From the NCBI GenBank assembly GCA_028753945.1, contig JAPNXP010000001.1, positions 10,096,501 to 10,160,500 of the forward strand: a DNA stretch of 64,000 nucleotides, written 5' to 3'. This document shows positions 7,881 through 52,909 of this stretch, piece by piece. The position numbers and the translations under genes are program-made. Numbering within the stretch: the stretch's first letter is position 1; each line of letters opens with the position of its first letter. The notes under the pieces were generated by a model, which saw nothing but the letters and a program-made list of their open reading frames with translations, made no database searches and was not told the DNA's origin. This DNA is from Hexactinellida sp. DTS-2022. Taxonomy: Eukaryota > Porifera > Hexactinellida.

Positions 7881-8513
7881 ATCAAGTGGCAATCAGTGTT
7901 GCGTTCCTTCATGGATGTATAACCGCCTGGTTTGATGCATCAAAGTCTGTGGTAAGTTAGTGCAGTTAGTATGTCGTGACTGTGAGTCAGTGGGAGGGGA
8001 AGAATATGTGTATTAAGCTAGGCAATAGTTAACTAAACAACTGACTAATCAATAATCATATATAAGTAATGTTATAAAGGTATATCAATCAAATTACCTA
8101 AGAGCAGATATATTATGATAACACGACTGTATAGTCATCCAGGTGCGTGTTCACCGCGGCCATGGTGCTCCACTCAATTAATTCGGAAGAATGCCCAGAC
8201 CAAATATAGGGGAAATTAAACTGTAGTATGAATAGACAATATTACTAAATAAGTACTTATTTTCAATCTTTACCGGATTGGTATAGCATACGTAGTGTGT
8301 ATCGAGGAGTGTAAACATATTATGACTGTTAATAATTACTTTAAATAAAGAAATCAAAAGATAATAATGTGAGAAATATTATTGTTTAAAAGCGCGATTT
8401 ATTCAAGTTCCTCTTAAGCGTCACGTCCCAATAAATGGCGCACATTTATAGATACATATTCAATTAGGGGAGACATTTTTGTATTCCAATACTATCTCTT
8501 ATTTATAGATAAA
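7881..8513. promoter_or_regulatory. Upstream region of the NLR gene
   Basis: About 630 bp without a gene before the NLR start codon. It becomes strongly AT-rich from 8210 on. No motif stands out enough to name a promoter element. The promoter and 5' UTR of the intact NLR gene must lie at least partly here. Confidence 0.35.
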
Positions 8514-11500
8514 ATGGAGAAATTAAATATTGCGGAAATTAAGTCTATGAACGAACTTGCAAAAACGCTAACGCCAGAGAATGTACGCACGTTGCAAGAC
8601 ATACTCGGGATTCCGTCCGGAATTGTTGAACAAACTAGAACCAATCCATACGATTTCATTAATTCGTTGAAATTCAGATTCGGAGCTTTGGATCCCAAAA
8701 GATTCCACAAAGCGCTAGAAACCATACAACGACCCGACCTTATACCAATAGCCAATAAGATCGACTGGCTCAACGTGACCTTCGCAGGGCCTACAACCAA
8801 AAGGGATAACTCCCCTTCAGTAGAATCATTCGTGACCTTACTCAGAAATGAAATGACCAATGACCAATGGAAAATGATATTAGGCGGTGGAACGTCGCAA
8901 GAGGTTTCGACAGAAATAGAATTCGATTCAGCATTTAAGTTGTGCATTGAGGGAGGTTTGATCAGCCAAAATATGGAAAGGTTAAGCGAAATGATGCAGG
9001 CTGTAGATCGTGAGGATCTAGCTAAAGAGATGAGAAAGTATTCACCAATATTTACGAATATGAATGAATCCGAATTCCAAAGCAAAATGATAGTAGAATT
9101 GCAATCCAACGAAACAAAGGATCAAGAAGAATGGGTAAAGAGACTGAGAGAGTATACAGTCCAGCAAAATGCAAATGTGTACATACACTTTGATGATGAG
9201 GATAGCACCACATTAGAATCCGTCTATACACCACTAACCATTGTGGAAGAGGAAATAATGAGAGTTAAGGAAGATGAAGAGACCAGCCTAAACGAAATAG
9301 CTTTCCTAAGGTCGATGAACCAAAAAGAAAAGGCATTGAAAGTGGTTGATTTCATTGCCATTATATCGCAGCGTGATCCGACTGAACCCAAAGTATTCTG
9401 TCTGATAGGAAATCCTGGTTGTGGAAAAACATTCCTGTGCAAGTACCTAGCCCTCCAATATGGAAATGGCACACACACGAATTTCAGTTACGTCATATCG
9501 ATACAGTGTCGCAGTGAGGAGTGGCATGGCATGGAGAAATCTAGACAAGACACCGAGAAGGTTATCGACGAAGAATTCATCCAAAAATGGTTTTCCTATA
9601 CAATGCCAATGGGCATCAAATGGTCCAAATCCCTAGCGAAACATCTGACTAAGACAGGAGGAGAAGGTCTCCTAATAATCATTGACGGAGTGGACGAATT
9701 CATCAAGGATGTTCCATTCAAAACGACACTGTTGTACTTCCTGCTACAGAAACGTGTCCTTAACCGCGCAACGCTACTTGTGACCAGCAGGCCCGGTGCA
9801 TGGAATGACATCAGAGAGGAACACGGTCAGGCCTTGAGCGTGGACTCCAGCTTCCAGGTGCTGGGGTTCTCTCCCCCAGACAGAGACAGCTACTTTGAGA
9901 AGAGGATTAGCACGGTTGATAAACTGAGAGACACAAAGGAGCTGTTCTTCCGACACGATGAAATTAATCAGTTATCACTAGTGCCAGTTAACGCTAGTCT
10001 CTTCTCGTCGCTATTTAACGCCACAAACAACATTCTATCTCAGACACTTACACAGCTCTACTCCGCACTGATTGTGTACATAATAAGGCGGCAATTGCAT
10101 CGCATGGGACTGAAGCGATTAACGCGGGTAGAGCGCATGGCACAATTCCATCCATCCATCCTAGCCTGCATAGACTGCATAGGAAAGGAAGCCTACGAAG
10201 GCATATTCCACAGGGAGCTCAGCTGCAGAGAAGAGGATGTGTCAATTCGCGTAGACTCCCGTGACTACAAGACTGAGCGACTAGGCATTATGCAGGTACA
10301 AGTGAAGGTTCTAAAGCTAGGCCAGAAAGTGAATGTTTGGACCTTTGCTCACTTGACACTGCAAGAATACATTGCTGCTGTGCATCTTAGCAACAAGACA
10401 TGGACAGTGGAATGCATAATAGTTCGATTCATAGTGAGTAGTGAGGAGGTGTTCGCAATGTATAGGATGGTAGTGAGGTTCCTATGCGGTCTGCTATCGG
10501 ATAGAGCTGCCTGTCTCATGCCCATTATCTGTGGGAATATTATACCCGATACAATGCCACTAATCGGTATACCTATGGTACATCAACTCGGGTACTTCGA
10601 CAATATCATCAGTGTCTCTGACTGGAGTCAATTTACTCAGGTCTATCTACTCATTTGTACACTAATAGTAGAAACTAACTCTCGCTCAATGAAAGAGTAT
10701 TTCGAATGTTTTATTAAACTATTGGCAGAACATGTGCACTTCACTTTCGATAAATCTATAGCACCAAATGAATTCCATTGTTTTCAGCAGTCACTGAATT
10801 ACTTCTGCCAAATAGAAATCCTATACATAGACACATCTCTAATTAATCCTGACCAGTTCAGTCTACTACTGCATCAGCTCTCCTCCTGCAGCCTACACTA
10901 CCTAGCCATTGTATTCTATGGAGACGATACAGAGACAATCCAATCGTATACGAGCCTCCTATTCTCTGCTGATACACCAATTAACTATAAGATCAGTATT
11001 AGCCTCGTTCAGTGTGACCTAACAGAGAGTCTGCATTCCAATCCTCTCTTCCTAACAACAAGCAATAGGTTGACTGGAAGCATTAGTTTATACGAATCCG
11101 CAATATCCAATGAAATGCTGACACATTTGACCAATCAGTTTGCTAGCATTGAGAATCTATTCTATCAGCCCAAATCAGATGATTCTGATTGGTCTATTCT
11201 GCTGTCACTGATATCCAACAACAGAGCTATTAAGGGACTGACCATATCGGATCCTAAATCATACCTTCCAGAGACAACAGACATACTATCAGGCCTCTCC
11301 TCCCTGGAAGAGTTATTCTGGTACAATAAGGATCCCTACGTTGCCCTACCTTACCTACAGACTAACAACAGTCTCAGTTATCTATCGCTAATGGCACCTA
11401 ATGAGCCTCCTCTTAGGGAGAATTACCAAGACCTTCTCATAAACCTAATTGCTAATAATGCCACTTCATTGAGGGAAATACGCTTGTATTATTTACCATC

Positions 11501-11927
11501 AGTCGGATTGAACAGCTGTACTAGCATCTTATCCCCAATTCAATCCTGTTGTAATCTGGTATTACTATCGCTAGCTTATTCTCCATTCACCTCAGATGAT
11601 ATCAGCTGCTGGGACACTGCTATCCCCTATCTTCAGTTTCTTGTGGGATTGAGTCTCGGTGCTATCCCCTTGCAGGACACAGGACTAATGGAACTGTGCA
11701 AGAGTCTTTATAAACACCCAGCTATTCGTAACCTATCGATCTACGTTTGCGAACTAACTTCCGACTCTTGTGAGCCTATTTTCATGCTTATCCACACACT
11801 CCCGTATCTACGCTTACTGAAGCTATTCAAGCCTGAGCTCTCTCTCCCCGATCCCAGCCAGCTACATCTACTCCAGCAAACAGCAGAGCTATTCTCTGTT
11901 GAAGTGATTGTTGAAGAAGACACCTAA
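8514..11927 (+). CDS. NACHT-LRR (NLR-like) innate immune receptor with N-terminal death-fold domains
   Basis: Single uninterrupted frame of 1137 codons. Residues ~10-90 ('TLTPENVRTLQDILGIP') look like a Death-type domain, and residues ~105-180 ('LCIEGGLISQNMERLSEMM' then 'DREDLAKEMRKY') like a DED-type death fold. A NACHT NTPase follows: Walker A GNPGCGKT near residue 300, Walker B LLIIIDGVDEF near 385 and a TSRPGAW sensor region near 425. After a helical middle section, leucine-rich repeats of variable length run from ~760 to the end. NLRs of this layout sense danger signals in the cytosol and oligomerise through NACHT; death folds recruit adaptors or caspases. The ATG at 8514 precedes the first domain directly and the upstream sequence is AT-rich. 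No introns and no breaks, so it looks functional. Ligand and partners are unknown. Confidence 0.9.
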   Translation: MEKLNIAEIKSMNELAKTLTPENVRTLQDILGIPSGIVEQTRTNPYDFINSLKFRFGALDPKRFHKALETIQRPDLIPIANKIDWLNVTFAGPTTKRDNSPSVESFVTLLRNEMTNDQWKMILGGGTSQEVSTEIEFDSAFKLCIEGGLISQNMERLSEMMQAVDREDLAKEMRKYSPIFTNMNESEFQSKMIVELQSNETKDQEEWVKRLREYTVQQNANVYIHFDDEDSTTLESVYTPLTIVEEEIMRVKEDEETSLNEIAFLRSMNQKEKALKVVDFIAIISQRDPTEPKVFCLIGNPGCGKTFLCKYLALQYGNGTHTNFSYVISIQCRSEEWHGMEKSRQDTEKVIDEEFIQKWFSYTMPMGIKWSKSLAKHLTKTGGEGLLIIIDGVDEFIKDVPFKTTLLYFLLQKRVLNRATLLVTSRPGAWNDIREEHGQALSVDSSFQVLGFSPPDRDSYFEKRISTVDKLRDTKELFFRHDEINQLSLVPVNASLFSSLFNATNNILSQTLTQLYSALIVYIIRRQLHRMGLKRLTRVERMAQFHPSILACIDCIGKEAYEGIFHRELSCREEDVSIRVDSRDYKTERLGIMQVQVKVLKLGQKVNVWTFAHLTLQEYIAAVHLSNKTWTVECIIVRFIVSSEEVFAMYRMVVRFLCGLLSDRAACLMPIICGNIIPDTMPLIGIPMVHQLGYFDNIISVSDWSQFTQVYLLICTLIVETNSRSMKEYFECFIKLLAEHVHFTFDKSIAPNEFHCFQQSLNYFCQIEILYIDTSLINPDQFSLLLHQLSSCSLHYLAIVFYGDDTETIQSYTSLLFSADTPINYKISISLVQCDLTESLHSNPLFLTTSNRLTGSISLYESAISNEMLTHLTNQFASIENLFYQPKSDDSDWSILLSLISNNRAIKGLTISDPKSYLPETTDILSGLSSLEELFWYNKDPYVALPYLQTNNSLSYLSLMAPNEPPLRENYQDLLINLIANNATSLREIRLYYLPSVGLNSCTSILSPIQSCCNLVLLSLAYSPFTSDDISCWDTAIPYLQFLVGLSLGAIPLQDTGLMELCKSLYKHPAIRNLSIYVCELTSDSCEPIFMLIHTLPYLRLLKLFKPELSLPDPSQLHLLQQTAELFSVEVIVEEDT

Positions 11928-12364: not shown

Positions 12365-12771
12365 GTTCCTATCAGAGATGGAACCGGTCGGGATTTTCAT
12401 GACCCGACCCGACCGGCCGGTCGACCGGTCAATCATAGCTAGCAATAATTTATAAATAATAGAATAAGAATCTACTGTAGTGTCATGTCATATAATTTAG
12501 GAATAAATATTATGGCCATAGACCATTTAAGGAAGCCTCCTTTAAGACTACTAAGCTCTCAAAGGCTATTGGACCCAGATTCAATCAAAACAAATTATGA
12601 TATTGTGACGTAGTGGCATAGTCAGATGCACTATAGAGGGTCAGTCACTCCCAGGAGGCCTAGGTGCTGCTAGAGTCCGCAAGGGACAGGAGCGAGAGCA
12701 GACCTAGAGTGTGCGCTGACGGAGCTGCTAGGCAGCGAGAGAGGTCAGGCACAACGGTCGCAGTGAGCGTA

Positions 12772-12829
12772 CCGAGGGTAGAGGACTGGACCGTCCTCCT
12801 GATGAGGCCTATGGAAGGCCGAACCCATG
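12772..12829 (+). ncRNA. Hammerhead ribozyme motif, plus strand (near consensus)
   Basis: In order: a GGG of stem III and TA at the expected cleavage site (12776-12780), stem I GAGGAC/GTCCTC (12781-12798) with a 6-nt loop, the core CTGATGA (12799-12805), stem II GGCC/GGCC (12806-12820) with a 7-nt loop, then GAA and CCC (12821-12826). The layout is type III, with stems I and II closed and stem III open. Stem III is short, so activity is less certain than for the minus-strand motif. Confidence 0.6.
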
Positions 12830-12890
12830 TGATGAGCATGAGACACCGTAATATGTATCCCACACTCACCAAGAGCAACGCGTGATGGGT

Positions 12891-12942
12891 AGTGGTTTCG
12901 TCCTATCACAAGGACTCATCAGGAGGGTAACCCTCGACCACC
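12891..12942 (-). ncRNA. Hammerhead ribozyme motif, minus strand (complete core)
   Basis: Read on the minus strand: stem III 5' side GGTGG (12942-12938), then the GTC-type cleavage site with C17 at 12936, stem I GAGGG/CCCTC (12935-12923) with loop TTA, the core CTGATGA (12922-12916), stem II GTCC/GGAC (12915-12900) with an 8-nt loop, GAA (12899-12897), then A and CCAC pairing back to stem III. All invariant core positions are present, including the A15.1-U16.1 pair and a G-C pair starting stem II. Predicted cleavage lies between plus-strand coordinates 12935 and 12936. Type III layout. Confidence 0.85.
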
Positions 12943-13159
12943 TAGACCTTAGCCCGTCCGTCCCCCAGGTTACCACCATCACCGCTATGCTAGGCCCCCA
13001 CTAGCATACTCCTGCCAGGTCATCCTTACAATATTATGATATCGAATAGATCATATAGAGAACTCGACCGGCCGGTCAAAGTTCCGACCGGTACCCAATC
13101 CGACCCGACCGGTCGACCGGTGCCGGTCAGACCCAACCGGTTCCGTATCTGGTTCCTAT

Positions 13160-17261: not shown

Positions 17262-19561
17262 AAGGCCTGTTGTATGCCAGAATGACTCGCATGCTAGAAT
17301 GACACAAACCATGGATATTCACTATCTATGCTAGAATGACACGCTCTACTAATCATCTAATGACTGTTAGAATTCACAGGTTTCTCAGTTCATTCAGACA
17401 ATTACATTTCACTTTTTGTTATGGCTTCTTTATCTTTAGATTTATAATACAGTACTGTATTATTGGTGCAGGAATATTTATTAGAACAGTATTCTACCAA
17501 AGTAACCAAACAATTTAAATACCGAATAATCGGTGTTAATGTTGCAGTGTATATGCACTTTTGGTGTACATGCATGTACACCAGTGCACATGCATGTACA
17601 CTGATAAGTTGGTGTACATGCATGTACACCGGTGTATATGCACTTTATGAACTATATTGGCTACAAGTGTATATACACCAGTGTATACGCACTTTTGCTT
17701 ATTTTTAATGTCAATGGGTGCTTATAAATTTAAACTAGATATTGTGAATTCCTGTGTATCTAAGTTATGATATAACATTGATTCTGAAATTGTACATATA
17801 TTCCCTCGATGTAATATAGCTAGTATTATACATACGTATGTTATGATTATGACATACGGCGCGCGTGAATTACTTTGATAAAATTGCAATCGATTAGATT
17901 TTCACAAATACAATTGTAGGATGCATTGCTGGGAATATAATTATAATTAACTTCAAAGAATTTGTGTTTATTAAATGCATTGCATTATTATAACTGTATC
18001 TTATCAATTAGAATCAAATGTTATACAGTCAAAACCGGTTTATTCTAAACAATCCATTTCATGGAAATAAAGTAAGAAAAATCCTATAGTTAGAATAAAC
18101 CGATTGAAGATAAAACAAAATTGGAATTTCCTACACATTTAGAATAAATAGAAAACGATTAGTTACGAAAAACTGGGATTAGAAAACCTGTTTCGACTGA
18201 ATCATAACTAGATAGATACACAGGAATTCACAATACTTAATTAAAAAATTCATAAGCACCCATTGACATTAAAAATGGATAAAAGTGCGTATACACTGGT
18301 GTATATACACTTGTAGCCAATATAGTTCATAAAGTGCATATACACCGGTGTACATGCATGTACACCAACTTATCAGTGTACATGCATGTGCACTGGTGTA
18401 CATGCATGTACACCAAAAGTGCATATACACTGCAACATTAATACCTATCTTAAGGGGAACACTTATTGAATTTCAGGGTACCTCGCGGTGAAAAGGAAGA
18501 AATATTTCAATTTCCAGTATACAATAGATCAAGTCCGAAAATATGTCAAGAAAACGAATCCGAATTTTTTTTTTAAAAATTTCACCTTTGAGGTCACTTT
18601 TGGGGAAAAAATTAAAAAAAATTAAAAAAATTAAAAATTATTTTTAAAAAATTTTTGCGACAATTGTTGTTGATTTTGATCATTCTGATAGTTTTGGAAA
18701 AATAAATAAAAACTTTAAATATTAATAAAAGACACTTTTTCATTAATAATTGTACAAGAAAAGTAATTTTTTTTGAAACGGACATACATTGTAAAAAAGG
18801 CGTATAAGTACCAAAACTGATGTCTCTCCGGAATAGAATTTCAAATTTAATTAAGTTTTATTGAGCAATAATTTTTTTAGTGCAAAATATATGGAATTTT
18901 CGATTATTTTTCCACTAAAATTACTAAAAATAAAATTTATTAAAATTTAATTCTAAAACAAAAATTCTAAACCGGACAGACATCGCTAAATAGAGTAAGG
19001 AACATTTCATAATTGAGGTTACTATTCAAAATCATAATTCTAGATAGTGAATTGTCGATAATTGGCTAGTATGGATCAGTTTCGATTAGTATAGTATAGA
19101 AATTTGAATTCGCTATAACCGAGGATATATGAATTCGCAACTTCTAATATTATGGATATTTACTAGATAGGCATAGAGCAAATTAATGGCTATTTCAACT
19201 TTCTCAAATTCGAATGTTGAAAATTCACTAAGTGTCCCCCTATCTTAATGTCTTAATTTTAAACATACTTTTTGCTTTTTATATCAGCGAATATTGGTTT
19301 TATAATAATGAAATCAAATACGAAATCTTAGAATTCATTAAAACAAATAGTACCTGTAAATTGTAATTAATACTATTTTAAAATCTAAAGATAAAGAAGC
19401 CATAACAAAAAGTGAAATGTAAATGTCTGAATGAACTGAGAAACCTGTGAAGTTCTAAGTCATTAGATGATTAGTAGAGCGTGTCATTCTAGCATAAATA
19501 GTGAATATCCATGGTTTGTGTCATTCTAGCATGCGAGTCATTCTGGCATACAACAGGCCTT
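17262..19561. mobile_element. Large nested palindromic element
   Basis: The outer arms (17262-17450 and about 19375-19561) are inverted repeats starting AAGGCCTGTTGTATGCCAG, next to possible TA duplications. Inner arms (about 17530-17765 and 18200-18452) are also inverted and carry a dense set of TGTACATGCATGTACA-type palindromes. The loop (17766-18199) holds a small Tigger-like pair ('cagtcaaaaccggttta' near 18026). The right arm was later lengthened by the insertion at 18454-19240. No transposase; superfamily unresolved. Confidence 0.75.
18454..19240. mobile_element. Non-autonomous DNA transposon with 8-bp target duplication
   Basis: TATCTTAA occurs at 18446-18453 and 19241-19248. The ends GGGGAACACTTATTGAATTT and AAATTCACTAAGTGTCCCC are inverted repeats. 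787 bp, very AT-rich, no transposase. Its insertion explains why the right arm of the surrounding palindrome is longer than the left. Confidence 0.8.
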
Positions 19562-22480: not shown

Positions 22481-23436
22481 ACAGCTTCTCCACCTTCCAA
22501 CAAAGGTAGTGAAAAATTAACTTACCAACTATTGGACGAATTTAGGGAAAAGTTTTTCAACGCCCCTATTTGTCATGACCTGTCTTCGGTCAACTACGAA
22601 TTTGCTATACAACAATGCTAATAAAATAATTTCTGACGAACAAGTATGGGGACTTCGTAGCTATCTCCAAATACTCGAGAGAGAACTATACTTGCTAGCT
22701 GATGCAATTAATTCTTACTACTGTTTGAACGCATCACTAAAAACAACTAGATTGAGAGTAAGAATAGGACACAATTAATGACCATGTTATACCACTTGAA
22801 ATTAAACAGCGACGTACAGATCGAAGAATGTGTGGAATCTATGAAGAAGATATGTAAGGTTTTGGACATTACAAAATTGCTAGGAGTCACTGATGCTCAC
22901 TATATGCTATGTGGTATAAAAGGCTTGAATAAACTTTAATTAACCAATATTCTTAAAGAGAATCCTGAAATTAACAAAAGATTTGTCCTTCGAAGATAAT
23001 TGACCAAAGTGGCCCATTCGGCATGAGCTGGTTGAATGAACAGGATGAAGTTATTGAGAGGTTTAGACACGGCAACTGTAATTTTCTAGTTAGCACCTCA
23101 GTTCTGGAGGAGGGATTGATAATCCTGATTGCGACGTTGTAATACGATTCGATGGAATAAAATCTTTGATATCATTCACAAGGTAGGGCAAGGAAATGGG
23201 AGAAGAGTCAATCTATATTTTAATGTCAGAGAATGAAGAGAAAATCATACTAGAAATACAAGAACACGATACTACTGTGAAAAAGGTGTTAACAAACAGA
23301 TACAAAGATAACGAGGTTACTTTTAAATCTACACTGAGGATTCAGAGAGAAATACTCGATAAACCTTCACCTCCGCCAAAACAAGAGTTCGAATGTACTC
23401 TTAGTCTTCCGAGTGTACAGTATAATTCTATTTGAC
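22480..23436 (+). pseudogene. Dicer-type helicase domain, N-terminal part of a decayed RNA-silencing gene
   Basis: Fragments in shifting frames read as the end of the insert domain and the C-terminal RecA domain of Dicer/RIG-I/DRH helicases: 'VIERFRHGNCNFLVSTSVLE' followed by EEG (helicase motif V, 23049-23115), then 'DCDVVIRFDGIKSLISFTR' (23129-23185) and a helical stretch 'ILMSENEEKIILEIQEHD'. The DExD/H N-terminal half is not found in the window. Several frame changes and stops show this copy is dead. It runs straight into the RdRP remains on the same strand. Confidence 0.7.
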
Positions 23437-26400
23437 AGGTTTTCACAAACTATTCTATATTAAAAATAGAATTGCTGACCTCTTCACCAAATATTTCCTG
23501 AGAGTTAAACTTATCGATCAGGCAAACTGTAATTCTATCTCGAAATCTAGAAATATATTTTCACAGGAAGATTCCCTATTAATACTGGGCTTAAAAACAC
23601 TGACTCCTAATATCTACCAGCGGTACAAACTTATGTGTGCCGACTGGTGTTTTTTTCTTAATATGATTCGGTCATGTGTCTGGACCAGGGTGGTGCTACC
23701 TCCTAAAATATAGACTTGAAATTAGCTCGATGTGACCAATGATAATGGTGTCATAGGCGCCATAGGGTATATTCAGTGACAAACAAATATTTGAAATAAA
23801 GGAATCATTCAAACAGATATAGATGAAATGCAGCTCACTCTACCTATTTCTCCTCAGCTGATAATAGATAACTTGAATTCACCGTTTTATACTTTATAAC
23901 TGGAAAAACTGATGTAACATTATTTTTACCTCTTGTCCATTGTCCATTAGTCCGAACTAGCCGTGGTGAAAGAAGATCATGTGATAATTCCGTGTTTTTA
24001 ACGTGTTTTTTCCGACTATACTGTGGTTGGCATTTCGCTCAGGTATAAAAAACATAACTGGAGTCAGTTATGGTCATTTCTTCACTCTTCAACTATTTTC
24101 CCAGTCTCATTATTTGAATCGCGCGTAGAAGTGCATTCAGACACTATTGAATCAGACAAAGATGAGTTCATTAATCGTTGTCAGGAGACGAACGACTACA
24201 AAATTGTATATGGCAATTCTCTGTACTAAAATCCGGATGAACGATTTTTTTCCGGAGGAAACTGTTGCGAATATTTAATGAAGATTATCACAAGCTAGAT
24301 TAGAAATATTAATGCTTCTAATTTCACACTATCACATCTTCTTTTACTAATTTCATGTACAAATACCTTTTATTTCTTTGATGTGCAAAGAGCTTTCGAT
24401 GATATAATTGAAGTAGTAAAGGAACAACCAGACTTTACCCAATCTACAAATCCCAAAAAATAATTTCCTCTACATAGACACTGCAATGGTTACTCCGTCT
24501 ACCATTATTCCACTGCACCCTTCTAAACCCAATGCAACAGGCTTTATAGGAAATTCCCTAGCGAAAAATACCTGAACTTAGCATTCTGTGAGGAGCATGG
24601 AGAACCCCTCAAGAACGCAGATGTAATCGATCGCGTTAAGAAAACACTCGTGTCTGGGATTGTAATTAACGGCTCTAGTTACCATTTCCTTGTCAGCAGT
24701 GGAAGTCAGCTGAGAAGCAAGAAAGCTATCATTTTACACATTGGAGAAGACGATAATGCTCATGATAAGATTAAATATTTCAGGTCTCAACTAATGGGAA
24801 ACTCGGTTGTCAATAATGAGACAAAGTATCTAAACAGACTAGGTCTGTTTTGTACCTCCGATTTTCCAGCTTGTGAGATTGGTGAGTGAGACTCTTAAGC
24901 TGCCAGATTTGTTTGCAGCTAATGGAGATAACCTGACAGATGGCAATGGGAAATTAGTAAATCTCTAGCTAAAAGGTCTTGGAAGATATTCCCTTAAAGA
25001 ATAACCCGACTATTCTTGACACTACAGCAATACAGATTAGACTTTCCGGTCTTAAAGGTGTATTGACAGTAGTGGATGGTGAGACGGATCCTGATTTCAA
25101 ACGGGAAATCCAAAGTGCAATATTTTATTTTAAAAATCAATGAAGAAGATTGAATGGACAGATTCTGCAATATGTGTTGTAAAAGTAGGTAAATACAATA
25201 AATTATTTCTCAACACACAGATGCTGACCCTTTCTAATTAGTCTAAAGCAATGGGATCCTAAAATCTAATTGAAGGCAATATTCAAGCAAACACTCGAAT
25301 ACAGCTCTTCACCAATTTAGAGACTGCAAACTTTGCATTGACTTCCCAATACCTTAATTGCCCACAGAAAACAAGTCAATACTTTGATATTCTCACTGAG
25401 CCTTATTATTTCTTTACTACGATGCATTTATGCGTACAATATTAAGAATATAATAAATAGATTTCACATTCCAAATAGGAACGGTTGTATCTTGATGGGA
25501 ATTCTTGATCCAATCGGAGTACTTGAAAACGGATTAGTGTTCATTGCCTATGAGGAATATCCTTCAGAACGCACTCTCATACGGATACTAGCATGACGCG
25601 TTCGGTTTATAAAACCCTTGTCTTCATCCTGGAGACTACTCACGCCCACTGCTGTGGATAGAGAAGAGTTAAATAGTCTCCATAACGTAATAGTGTTCCC
25701 TATTAAGGGCAGCAGATCTCTTCCTGCTTGTAGCGGCGTGGAGATCTTGATGGTGATGAGTTTGCGATTATTTGGGACGAAAACCTTATTCCGCCGGAAA
25801 CTGCTACTTTCCATCCATTGAATTATAATCAAGTGCTGGAAGAGTATACAGATAAACTTGATGTGGAAAGATTGGATTTGCAGAATTTAGATGGAACACA
25901 AATTGTTACAGACAGAAAAGTTCCAAACCATTTAGACGAGAATATAGAGAGTATATTAGCCAATTCATATTCTAAGGTTATCAGGAACCAGCTGCTGGGT
26001 ATTATATCTCGGGGCGAGGGACGACATGGCTATAGAGCTAGTTAAATTGGCTTCATTAGCAGAAGACGCCCCTAAAACTGGAATTTCCCCAACGATACCT
26101 GAAAAGGCTAAAAAATTGATAAGAGATAAGGTTACCCTGATTTCATGGAAAAAACAGAAAATACTTCTTATCTTCGAGGAAGTTATTAGGAGAGTTCTAT
26201 CACGAAGGCTAGAGCTGTTTATTCAATGCAACCGAATGGGAAAATATCTTAAACTATTATAGTTAACTGTACTTTAAACAGAGGCTACCCGGAAACGGTC
26301 CTATCAATATGTTTATGATACCAAGTCATGAAGTATACATCGAAGATGCAAATAAAATATATTTCATTTATACATACGCCCTAAGGACAATAATGCTATC

Positions 26401-26600
26401 TCTTGGTATCGAAACGGAGGCTGAAGTTATGCTGAGTCTAGTAATAAAGTGCCATCCTCTCCTGTCTGCAGATATGTTTAGGAATACGAGGGTGCTTGAA
26501 CAGCTACTTCCAACTTAACACAAGAATCCGAGAAATATTTTATAAAGACACAGATTCCAGTGAGATGAACAGAAAGCCGCGGCTTGGTACCTCGCCGCAT
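23437..26600 (+). pseudogene. Cellular (QDE-1/EGO-1 type) RNA-dependent RNA polymerase, decayed
   Basis: Eukaryotic RdRP family motifs appear in the right order: 'SGIVINGSSYHFLVSSGSQL' (24656-24715), 'YLNRLGLFCTSDFPACEIG', then 'LTDGNGKLV' (about 24937-24960), 'IQIRLSGLKGVLTVVDGE' (about 25031-25084), the region 'NRNGCILMGILDPIGVLENG' and, at 25743-25760, the catalytic DLDGD followed by 'EFAIIWDENLIPPETATF' and a C-terminal helical region to ~26600. This family makes double-stranded or secondary small RNA from RNA templates in silencing. Many stops and frame changes, including one just before DLDGD, mean this copy cannot make an enzyme. It is a host-type gene, not a viral polymerase. Confidence 0.8.
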
Positions 26601-26670
26601 ATGAGCGACAGCTCCAGCAGAGTGGCGAACTTATTTCCCTCTCCTTCCCCTGGCTAGTAGGAGAGCACTT

Positions 26671-27640
26671 GTGCGAAAAATTTTCCATTTATCAGTAACC
26701 CATGCCCAAGGAACAAGATTTTCACTGGCTGATAGGAACATTTTACAACACAGCCATAATATAATTAATCTTGTCGAGAAAAAGGGGCGTCTGCTACCAG
26801 ATATTGAATCAATTATCAACCAATATGCGGCCAAGTTTTGTAAAGCGAAAAGTGATTCTGAAACTCAAGACGTTTTCAAGGTAGGGGCGTACGGCTCTGT
26901 ATCTAAGTACCCCTGCGAATTGCAATCTGACTTAGATATCTGTGTTTCATTTACTAATGGAACTGAATCGATTCCAGAGACAGAAAAATTCAGATCTTTA
27001 GATATCAGAAAACAACGCAAACACCTCCTCAAATCTTTTATCTCTCCTCCGCTCTGTTATATAGCAAATAACAAATTTGAGAAGATTAATGTAGGATTCC
27101 CTTTTCTTAACTGCACTGTTGATTCACCAGATGAGAGGTGTACTGAAATGAGTGTGGATATCAGTGCTCGACAAAATGAAATTTTGATGGTGGCTAATTA
27201 AGCCACCACCTCGCTTTTTCTGGTGGCTAAAGAATAAACAACGGCCGATTTAACAAACCACTGATGACTTAACAAAGTTATAATGCTGTAAACAACACTC
27301 ATATTAATAACAAATAATGCAACGATAAATATAATTTACACCACGTCAAATAATTCACAATTCATTGTAGATTTGCTAAGCCACCAAAGGCAATATTTGG
27401 TGGCTTAAATAAGATTTTTGGTGGCTAACGCCACCAAACCACCTAATTTGTCGAGCACTGGTGGATATTACTGTTGATAGCGACGGAGTTCTCAAAGCTG
27501 ACTATATCTTACAGTTGTATCATTCCACTGGAGGGCTCTTCTTTGCGTTTTTGTGGATTCTAATTCACTGGGCAAGACACGTGGGGATCTTGAAAGTAGC
27601 TTACCAAACAGCACAATTTGAGGCTTTGGTCTTACATACA
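26671..27640 (+). pseudogene. Non-canonical poly(A) polymerase/TUTase-type nucleotidyltransferase, interrupted by a hAT-like element
   Basis: An open stretch of 176 codons (26671-27201) contains the Pol-beta-type signature G-S-x(11)-D-x-D: 'VGAYGSVSKYPCELQSDLDI'. It continues to 'EMSVDI', where a 299-bp element is inserted. Beyond it (27461 on) the frame resumes with 'TVDSDGVLKADYILQLYH' and 'LFFAFLWILIHWARHVGILK', matching the segment after the third catalytic Asp in Cid1/Cid12/TRF4-type enzymes. The insertion hits the codon region of that Asp. It directly follows the RdRP remains on the same strand, so it was probably the C-terminal part of the same gene or a co-transcribed partner. The end is lost in a second transposon at 27639. 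Confidence 0.75.
27162..27460. mobile_element. hAT-like miniature element in the nucleotidyltransferase
   Basis: Perfect 8-bp duplication GTGGATAT at 27154-27161 and 27461-27468. Ends CAGTGCTCGACAAA and TTTGTCGAGCACTG are perfect inverted repeats. The interior carries 'ggtggctaa'/'ttagccacc' repeats in both orientations. 299 bp, no transposase. Confidence 0.9.
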
Positions 27641-45584: not shown

Positions 45585-46310
45585 TTACAGTACTAATACA
45601 TGAAAATAATATAAAGAGTGGTGGAAATAATAATATGAATTAACTAATAAATATTTCTCATTTGGAGAACGGCATGTTGGACAGGGATTTCCAAGTTCTT
45701 CAATTATTTTATTGCACACTGTACAGCAATTCGCATGCTTGCATGGTAAAAAGATCCATGTCGATGTTCTGGGATGAAGATAAACTGCACAATTATTATT
45801 TAACGTACTCTCCAATCCATCTTCTGTTTCAGATTTGTCTGAAAAATCGAAATATTCTGCCTCTACATTCTCCATTAAGTGACTTACAAATGATGATAAC
45901 TCTTGATTGTTGTGAAAATTATTTACAAATCCGAGTTTTTTAGTTTTATGCCAAATGCGTTGTGTAAAATGAAACCAACAGCCCTTTACTTCAACATCTG
46001 GATAAATTTCTCTCAAGGCATTACGTGGAGCAATTTCCCAGTCTGACATACATGTTGTAGGGTTGAATTGGGGTAAGAGAATGCGAATGCTATTCAAAAT
46101 GTACTTGTATAGCTCTTGTTCTCTACCAATCAAAAGACAATGGATAGCAGGTAAGTTGTGTCTGCCAACTGTTACAAAACTGTCCACAGTTGATAGAATT
46201 GCTTCGGAACACAGTACACGGAACACGGACTACACTATCTGTATATTTTCGTCTAAGATATTTATGGCCATCTGCTGTTGTGAGAACTTGGCCAGTCTGT
46301 CGTCGATAAT
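45585..46310 (-). pseudogene. MULE transposase, C-terminal half, with RING-type tail
   Basis: A 213-codon minus frame (46226-45585) carries the MULE transposase core: 'LPAIHCLLIGREQELYKYIL', 'FNPTTCMSDWEIAPRNALRE', then 'GCWFHFTQRIWHKTKKLGF'. Upstream in another frame (about 46310-46220) 'TGQVLTTADGHKYLRRKYTD' looks like a FLYWCH-type zinc finger that often starts these proteins. The C-terminus holds a RING-like module: 'FLPCKHANCCTVCNKIIEEL' then CPTC, with one of the expected N-terminal cysteines absent. The N-terminal part is lost where the 46319 element begins. Confidence 0.7.
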
Positions 46311-49457: not shown

Positions 49458-50299
49458 ACGAGCCCTTCGGTCTCGGTCGCTTTGCAACAGATCGGTGCTA
49501 CGCACCTCAAGTTAACGGCCGCTCTGCGGCCTTACTCCTCATACTTTCTACCATGGAAATGGTAGAAAGGGACGTTATGATTTTGAATTTTCATTTATTT
49601 GTTTACCTATTTGTGTAAACAACAACAACAACAGCAAATACTCATATTATAATTTTATAAATGCGAAATTCGTGTTCAGCACACTTGTTTACTTATAATA
49701 CCCGTTGAAAGCTAACTTCTAGGTTGATTTTGAATTTTCAATAATTTATTTACCTATTTTTGTAAACAGCAACAATAAATATTCATATTAGAAATTTTTA
49801 AACGCGAAAATCGTGTTCAGCATACTTGTTTACCTATAATACCCGTTGAAAGCTAAGTTCTAGGTTGATTTTGAATTTTCATTAATTTATTTACCTATTT
49901 TGTGTAAACAACAACAACAAATATTCATATGAGAAATTTTTAAATGCGAAATTCGTGTTCAGCATACTTGTTTACCTATAATACCCGTTGAAAGCTAACT
50001 TCTAGGTTGATTTTGAATTTTAATTAATTTGTTTACCTATTTTGTGTAAACAACAATAACAAATATTCATATGAGAAATTTTTAAATGCGAAATTCGTGA
50101 TTAGCATACTTGTTTACCTATTATAACAATTGTTTACATATTATAACATTTGGAAGTTAGTTTCTATCCAAATTATAAATGCGGTTTCTTATCCCCAACA
50201 CTTTAATACAATCCGGACAAACAAACAAACAAACACACACACAAACAAACAAACAAACACACACACAAACAAACAACAATCGAGATTTAATGATATAGA
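49458..50299 (-). mobile_element. Helitron-like non-autonomous element with tandem core
   Basis: Same architecture as 1523-2606: plus-strand start ACGAGCCCTTCGGTCTCG, about four diverged core units, CAAA/CACA microsatellite, and plus-strand end 'caatcgagatttaatg' plus 'atatagat'. Confidence 0.65.
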
Positions 50300-50576
50300 T
50301 TAATGCACAGTCAGATTTAATTTAGCAATAGCTTCATTATTTAAGCCCCTGAAATTTTGCGCTACAGCTTTACCTGAATATCCCAAATGTAATACAAGCA
50401 TAAAATCTCATTAATTGAACCCTAAGTTACCAGAGTCCACTTTTCGAGTGGCTAGATAATCTTTCCCGTTTGACTATAAAATTTGGATAACCAAGTCTTA
50501 GTAACACGATATTCGCATTAGCATCCGATTTCAAAATCTTATATTTTATAAGGACTAATAACCAATTTATTACTTC

Positions 50577-52848
50577 GTAACATGTTATAAACGTAACATG
50601 TTACAAACGTAACATGTTACAAACATAACATGTAATAAACGTAACATGTTATAAACGTAACATGTTATAAACGTAACATGTTACAAACGTAACATGTTAC
50701 AAACATAACATGTAATAAACGTAACATGTTATAAAAGTAACATGTTATAAACGTAACATGTTACAAACGTAACATGTTACAAACATAACATGTTATAAAC
50801 GTAACATGTTATAAACGTAACATGTTATAAACGTAACATGTTACAAACATAGCATGTTACAAACGTCACATGTTACAAACATAACATGTTATAAACGTAA
50901 CATGTTACAAACATAACATGTTATAAACGTAACATGTTACAAACATAACATGTTATAAACGTAACATGTTATAAACGTAACATGTTACAAACGTAACATG
51001 TTACAAACGTAACATGTTACAAACATAACATGCTATAAACGTAACATGTTACAAACATAACATGTTATAAACGTAACATGTTATAAACGTAACATGTTAT
51101 AAACGTAACATGTTACAAACGTAACATGTTACAAACATAACATGTAATAAACGTAACATGTTATAAACGTAACATGTTATAAACGTAACATGTTACAAAC
51201 GTAACATGTTACAAACATAACATGTAATAAACGTAACATGTTATAAACGTAACATGTTATAAACGTAACATGTTACAAACGTAACATGTTACAAACGTAA
51301 CATGTTACAAACATAACATGCTATAAACGTAACATGTTACAAACATAACATGTTATAAACGTAACATGTTATAAACGTAACATGTTATAAACGTAACATG
51401 TTACAAACGTAACATGTTACAAACATAACATGTAATAAACGTAACATGTTATAAACGTAACATGTTATAAACGTAACATGTTACAAACGTAACATGTTAC
51501 AAACATAACATGTAATAAACGTAACATGTTATAAACGTAACATGTTATAAACGTAACATGTTACAAACGTAACATGTTACAAACGTAACATGTTACAAAC
51601 ATAACATGCTATAAACGTAACATGTTACAAACATAACATGTTATAAACGTAACATGTTATAAACGTAACATGTTATAAACGTAACATGTTACAAACGTAA
51701 CATGTTACAAACATAACATGTAATAAACGTAACATGTTATAAACGTAACATGTTATAAACGTAACATGTTATAAACGTAACATGTTACAAACATAACATG
51801 TTACAAACGTCACATGTTACAAACATAACATGTTATAAACGTAACATGTTACAAACATAACATGTTATAAACGTAACATGTTATAAACGTAACATGTTAC
51901 AAACGTAACATGTTACAAACATAACATGTTATAAACGTAACATGTTATAAACGTAACATGTTACAAACGTAACATGTTACAAACATAACATGTTATAAAC
52001 GTAACATGTTATAAACGTAACATGTTACAAACGTAACATGTTATATACGTAACATGTTATATACGTAACATGTTACAAACATAACATGTTATAAACGTAA
52101 CATGTTATAAACGTAACATGTTATAAACGTAACATGTTACAAACATAACATGTTACAAACGTCACATGTTACAAACATAACATGTTATAAACGTAACATG
52201 TTACAAACATAACATGTTATAAACGTAACATGTTACAAACATAACATGTTATAAACGTAACATGTTATAAACGTAACATGTTACAAACGTAACATGTTAC
52301 AAACATAACATGCTATAAACGTAACATGTTACAAACATAACATGTTATAAACGTAACATGTTATAAACGTAACATGTTATAAACGTAACATGTTACAAAC
52401 GTAACATGTTACAAACATAACATGTAATAAACGTAACATGTTATAAACGTAACATGTTATAAACGTAACATGTTACAAACGTAACATGTTACAAACATAA
52501 CATGTTATAAACGTAACATGTTATAAACGTAACATGTTATAAACGTAACATGTTACAAACATAACATGTTACAAACGTCACATGTTACAAACATAACATG
52601 TTATAAACGTAACATGTTACAAACATAACATGTTATAAACGTAACATGTTATAAACGTAACATGTTACAAACGTAACATGTTACAAACATAACATGTTAT
52701 AAACGTAACATGTTATAAACGTAACATGTTACAAACGTAACATGTTACAAACATAACATGTTATAAACGTAACATGTTATAAACGTAACATGTTACAAAC
52801 GTAACATGTTATATACGTAACATGTTATATACGTAACATGTTATTAAA
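50577..52848. repeat. Satellite of 16-bp palindromic units (GTAACATGTTATAAAC), ~142 copies
   Basis: Near-perfect 16-bp periodicity over ~2.27 kb. Three main unit types: GTAACATGTTATAAAC, GTAACATGTTACAAAC and ATAACATGTTATAAAC. Higher-order structure is visible: the variant 'aacatgctataaac' recurs at 51031, 51319 and 51607 (288 bp = 18 units), and 'catgtaataaac' recurs at 80-bp steps (5 units). Every unit holds the palindrome AACATGTT. It abuts the right terminal repeats of the MULE-like element, so it may have grown from a subterminal tandem repeat. Confidence 0.97.
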
Positions 52849-52909
52849 CTAATGACAACTTAGAAATTCGCACTAGTGACAACTCCAAATTTCGCACTAA
52901 CTCAGCGCT

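Follow-up and report, generated by a model that had tools for sequence, protein, structure and literature searches.

The stretch of DNA analysed here (the window) comprises 64,000 nucleotides of contig JAPNXP010000001.1 from Hexactinellida sp. DTS-2022 (Porifera), positions 10,096,501 to 10,160,500. Within it, at 12373-13151, lies a transposable element of the hAT type, and nested inside this element is a GC-rich segment that carries a hammerhead ribozyme motif on each strand. The outer element ends in inverted repeats of 20 nt that agree at 85% (12373-12392 and 13132-13151), contains GC-rich subterminal repeats, and is flanked by identical 8-bp target duplications, GTTCCTAT, on the left (12365-12372) and on the right (13152-13159). 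Terminal inverted repeats and an 8-bp duplication are features of the hAT type, and we assign the element to this type by its end motif and the length of its duplication. No frame of at least 120 aa lies inside it, so the element, which would measure about 340 bp without its insert, is regarded as non-autonomous. The hAT-like context proposed in an earlier description made from the letters alone (hereafter the sequence-only reading) is therefore upheld.

The inner segment extends over 12604-13027 and is annotated on the minus strand. It is 424 nt long, or 429 nt (to 13032) if only the exact part of the repeat that brackets it is counted. Its GC content of 57% compares with 30% for the interior of the outer element and 35% for the window, and the shift in composition falls at the bracketing repeats. 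These share an exact 10-mer, ATTATGATAT, at 12594-12603 and 13033-13042. With one gap they extend to 14 and 15 nt, namely ACAA-ATTATGATAT on the left (12590-12603; ACAAATTATGATAT in full) and ACAATATTATGATAT on the right (13028-13042), where there is one extra base, and we interpret them as the left and right target duplications of the inner insert. Both a GC-rich segment of about 430 bases and a repeat bracketing it had been claimed beforehand, and each is confirmed. Since the GC content jumps from 30% to 57% at the repeats, and the repeat brackets the segment, a piece of 424-429 nt was most likely inserted into a hAT-type element that already existed.

The opposing view is that the GC-rich segment is the ordinary interior of a hAT-type family and that the bracketing repeat arose by chance. 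The hAT-type ends do bracket the segment, and a repeat of this quality can arise by chance, if rarely: the exact 10-mer was matched in 83 of 20,000 shuffles of the flanks, and the score of the gapped repeat was equalled by 29 of 18,435 pairs of 50-base window stretches lying 439 apart, a comparison that excluded the locus itself and four large tandem arrays. However, the change in composition has a copy of the repeat at either edge, and hAT elements are DNA transposons in which, to our knowledge, opposed ribozymes have no known use. We consider this explanation very improbable.

The length of the inner duplication also bears on how the segment arrived. Target duplications of 10-15 bp suggest reverse transcription of the non-LTR (long terminal repeat) or Penelope type more than LTR integration; no poly(A) was found at the segment edges. 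An LTR retrozyme or a solo LTR was considered and rejected: the segment starts with TG, but the long duplication and the lack of direct repeats do not fit.

The minus strand of the segment carries a complete type III hammerhead at 12943-12890, as the sequence-only reading had claimed. In an Rfam covariance search of the window it was detected as RF00008 with 58.1 bits (E 2.6e-10), against a gathering cut-off of 48.5 bits. The alignment is full length, spanning model positions 1-54 of 54, and nothing else in the window reaches the curated cut-off of an Rfam family. The core CUGAUGA lies at 12922-12916 and the predicted GUC cleavage site at 12936/12935. Stem III has 6 bp, stem I is formed by GAGGG/CCCUC with the loop UUA, stem II by GUCCU/AGGAC with the loop UGUGAU, and the GAAA box is present. 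The minimum-energy fold of the isolated stretch is the hammerhead itself, at -18.2 kcal/mol.

On the plus strand, a second RF00008 match was found at 12773-12829, with 24.0 bits and an E value of 0.029 (4227 families, 1601 bases searched), so that the type III model, when run over both strands as the sequence-only reading had suggested, places one motif above its cut-off and one below. The plus core lies at 12799-12805 and the predicted GUA cleavage site at 12780/12781. Stems I (6 bp, GAGGAC/GUCCUC) and II (5 bp, GGCCU/AGGCC) are perfectly paired, and stem III has 3 bp. The isolated stretch folds into the three-stem hammerhead shape at -21.9, with a fourth stem III pair that takes one core A; the strict hammerhead arrangement has -20.3. 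This agrees with its prior description as a near-consensus hammerhead, given that the box reads GAA in place of GAAA.

The two motifs are separated by 60 bases. CTGATGA occurs eight times on the two strands of the window, and only these two occurrences stand in a hammerhead frame. We also used a structural descriptor that demands at least 4 bp in stem I, at least 4 bp in stem II, at least 3 bp in stem III and adherence to the cleavage-site rules; its tolerance of a short box was chosen post hoc, once the plus motif was known. It matched the window at these two places only. Twenty Markov windows, each of 64 kb, contained no match, and when 200,000 cores were placed in random sequence with the base composition of the segment, none gave a hammerhead. 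Nine viral contigs with hammerheads were fetched by a looser stem II pattern, none of which has an opposite-strand core within 400 nt.

How the two motifs are related is of importance for a second alternative, in which the core of an isolated genomic type III hammerhead was secondarily duplicated in inverted orientation, so that the minus motif alone was ever functional and the plus motif is decayed or fortuitous. Over 34 nt the two regions match as inverted copies (79%), so their cores may share one origin, and the plus motif scores below the cut-off. Isolated type III hammerheads, of a different, extended design, are known from termite and dipteran (fly) genomes (PMC7936874). Yet the plus motif has its own stems I and II, different from those on the minus strand, and these still pair in full (6 and 5 bp), which an inverted copy alone would not produce. 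This scenario therefore appears improbable to us.

The circularised segment was folded in both senses. The minus-sense circle reached -171.0 kcal/mol (z -2.66, with 2 of 200 shuffles as low; z -2.29 in a smaller set of 100 shuffles) and was predicted to form a branched rod with 94 of its 148 pairs on one axis, a proportion reached by 11 of 200 shuffles. Within this fold the minus hammerhead has 38 paired positions out of 54, and for 32 of these the partner lies in the plus hammerhead. The two ends of the segment pair with each other (12607-12610 with 13021-13024) and close the rod at its far end. The rod is capped by an uninterrupted hairpin of 17 bp, including five G.U pairs, at 12830-12871, which is formed by the minus RNA only: it has -23.3 on the minus strand (0 of 1000 shuffles) versus -5.2 on the plus strand (278 of 1000). 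The longest helix in 300 shuffles of the segment had 15 bp, and none had 17. The energy gap between the strands was larger than in 98 of 100 shuffles.

Taken together, the feature is real and unusual, and the best reading is that it originated from a circular RNA with symmetric rolling circle replication. We think it probable that the segment is one unit of a viroid-like circular RNA, copied into DNA and integrated, and that this RNA had type III hammerheads in both polarities. The source agent would be a small circle of about 424-429 nt. In either sense, the hammerhead of that sense would cut multimeric RNA into units, which would then be ligated to circles. The minus-sense circle, being stable, would adopt a branched rod in which the hammerhead domains face each other, so that cutting is prevented. 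RNA unbroken at the minus cleavage site, either circular or multimeric, would then have served as template for a host retroelement enzyme of a kind that produces long target duplications, and the DNA copy would have entered the existing hAT-type element of an animal chromosome. As the predicted minus cleavage site lies within the segment and not at either of its ends, a ligated circle or multimer fits as the template, and a linear self-cut monomer does not. The present copy is probably an inert fossil, because self-cutting of a lone unit cannot yield a complete circle and because the plus ribozyme lacks one residue.

Several observations weigh against this origin and must be set beside it. The plus motif falls under the RF00008 gathering cut-off and lacks one residue of the expected box, and in a lax Rfam search of the whole window it was not among the 43 rows up to E 1, where the minus hammerhead was the sole one listed. 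The 64-kb window contains no second copy of the segment. The facing of the cores is partly automatic, as any two opposed hammerheads have complementary cores. The plus-sense circle gave no compact-fold signal (z -0.27, 74 of 200 shuffles as low), and a rod in this sense was rejected, with 36 of 133 pairs on the axis and 180 of 200 shuffles reaching as much. The cap hairpin is the main source of the energy difference between the strands and supplies most of the excess stability of the minus fold, and perfect hairpins of at least 17 bp, G.U pairs allowed, are present elsewhere in the window too (five places on the plus strand; eight on the minus strand, the cap included). When the cap is removed, the minus fold has a z of -1.52, with 6 of 100 shuffles as low. 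Pairing of the rod arms beyond the hammerheads was likewise rejected as a signal, being reached by 162 of 1000 shuffles on the minus strand and 753 of 1000 on the plus strand, and the rod is lopsided, with 169 nt on one side of the hammerheads and 84-89 on the other. No homologue was found in collections that include neither animal genomes nor a viroid catalogue: the pattern of the segment's hammerhead had no match in viral contigs or in bacterial and archaeal genome contigs, and in phages it had a single 25-nt match with E 0.4.

Because the minus fold owes most of its excess stability to the cap and the arms pair no better than chance, we restrict our claim of predicted minus-sense, RNA-level structure to the cap hairpin and the hammerheads; a rod beyond them is only plausible. 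The sequence-only reading had placed the hammerheads face to face in a rod-like fold, and this holds in the minus sense but fails in the plus sense. Its wider interpretation is retained as far as the paired, facing type III hammerheads in a separately inserted GC-rich segment within a hAT-type element are concerned; the proposed origin from a circular RNA is weakened by the rod in one sense only and the shortened plus ribozyme. Judged from sequence and folding models, the anatomy of the segment would be that of a viroid-like RNA, a group of which it is a candidate member with an incomplete plus hammerhead.

In size and GC content the segment lies within the range of paired-hammerhead viroid-like RNAs, which like it have no protein frame; most viroids have a GC content of 52.2-61.6% (PMC7461866). 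Type III hammerheads on both strands, opposed in one sense, are shared with the Avsunviroidae and with the fig and citrus-associated hammerhead viroid-like RNAs (PMC7461866, PMC9608096), and paired hammerheads opposed in a rod have been called typical of several viroids and viroid-like RNAs (PMC7461866). In the fig RNA the hammerheads are opposed in the rod of the more abundant strand and an A precedes its cleavage site (PMC7461866), as is also the case for our plus motif. Unlike all of these, the segment has an incomplete plus motif. The fig and citrus RNAs were tested and are described as being without a DNA counterpart (PMC7461866, PMC9608096), whereas the segment is DNA in a chromosome with animal-type genes. 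Viroids proper have no DNA intermediate and infect plants autonomously; a DNA copy among animal-type genes says nothing about the RNA's own cycle.

In the available sources we found a single precedent for a viroid-like RNA that has been copied into DNA, the carnation small viroid-like RNA, a retroviroid-like element whose counterpart resides in host or pararetrovirus DNA (PMC7461866, PMC9608096). That element is from a plant and is linked to a pararetrovirus, whereas the segment has animal-type genes around it, is a nested insertion and is flanked by a long target duplication. In the literature covered, which excludes preprints and most subscription journals, no integrated DNA copy of a paired-hammerhead viroid-like RNA was found in an animal.

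Two groups of coding circles also resemble the segment in part. Zeta virus-like circles have an open frame in each sense, and these frames are stop-free round the circle. The segment, taken as a 429-nt circle, has stops in each of the six frames, and a coding circle of this type was rejected on that ground. The length of 429 (not 424) is a multiple of three, as in most Zeta virus-like circles, which were recovered by Serratus and have 324-789 nt, hammerheads in both orientations and predicted rods (PMC11721086). Hepatitis delta virus-like (epsilon) agents of toad and termite share type III hammerheads in both polarities with the segment and have isolated genomic relatives in insects, but they possess an extended helix I and a delta antigen, in contrast to the compact hammerheads and absence of a long frame seen here.

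The main rival, which the sequence-only reading had already named as its alternative, is a retrozyme-like family of the host genome. Such a family would be a non-autonomous retroelement with type III hammerheads on both strands, whose genomic copies give transcripts that cut themselves, become small circles and insert again. The RNA would be cleaved and ligated in the same way, but it would come from DNA copies instead of RNA-to-RNA replication. Retrozymes do exist in animals and yield circular RNAs, and their target duplications, when present, exceed 4 bp (PMC7229834). The animal non-LTR retrozymes are small ribozyme-bearing insertions like the segment, and the long duplication of the segment fits non-LTR insertion. 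They are, however, of type I, tandem and low in GC (below 45-50%), with no opposite-strand hammerhead mentioned in the available text, whereas the segment is of type III, has 57% GC and consists of one unit. More generally, type I hammerheads in tandem low-GC units are typical of animal genomes, and type III hammerheads are found mostly in plants and their RNA agents (PMC7229834, PMC7761336). A hammerhead on the opposite strand would have no evident use in a DNA-templated cycle. Plant LTR retrozymes differ in that they have a 4-bp duplication and direct LTRs with hammerheads, as opposed to a duplication of 14/15 nt and no direct repeat of the segment in the window. On balance we judge a genomic retrozyme-like family to be unlikely, and an integrated copy of a viroid-like RNA remains our preferred explanation.

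Open frames near the insert code for a NACHT protein, an NHL-repeat protein, calcium-binding EGF repeats and a protein kinase that has C1 and C2 domains and protein kinase C as its best PDB matches; from these we infer that the gene set is of animal type. The NACHT protein (1169 aa) is encoded by one long open frame at 8418-11924 on the plus strand, some 450 bases away from the outer element. Also on the plus strand, fragments of a eukaryotic RNA-dependent RNA polymerase of the RNA interference type (PF05183) lie at 24527-24886, 25342-25593 and 25734-26042; a Helicase_C piece (22975-23139) comes before them and a frame with a below-cut-off nucleotidyltransferase match (26605-27198) after them, so that 22975-27198 is perhaps one helicase-polymerase gene. 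The presence of a cellular polymerase of this kind 10 kb from a viroid-like insert is probably a coincidence.

Elsewhere in the window, a frame at 45588-46229 on the minus strand fuses a piece of a MULE transposase with a RING finger. A tandem unit of 142 bp is present in two arrays about 47 kb apart (1643-2484 and 49578-50125), which are 88-91% alike in the top matches and have no Rfam match at cut-off. A large inverted repeat at 17529-18448 has arms of about 248 bp (94%) with internal palindromes in each arm, and its sub-threshold matches to microRNA families look like chance. A 16-bp satellite at 50576-52849 (about 142 copies) contains sub-threshold mir-2567 matches.

Mining of sequence data has produced viroid-like circles with paired ribozymes in some 20,000 clusters at the species level (PMC11721086, PMC10162972), the hosts of which are, by our own reading, largely unassigned. 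A copy in germline DNA could name the host lineage and, with orthologues, set a lower bound on its age, much as has been achieved for RNA viruses with endogenous viral elements. If the segment is an endogenous viroid-like element in an animal, the nested insertion would be younger than the surrounding hAT-type element, and animals, or RNA agents in their germ cells, would have hosted small RNA circles that code for no protein and bear ribozymes of the viroid kind in both senses; this broader conclusion we hold to be quite possible, if still short of probable. Should the segment belong to a genomic family instead, it would represent a retrozyme with ribozymes on both strands, and might be a link in the line that has been proposed to lead from ribozyme elements of genomes to viroids (PMC7761336).
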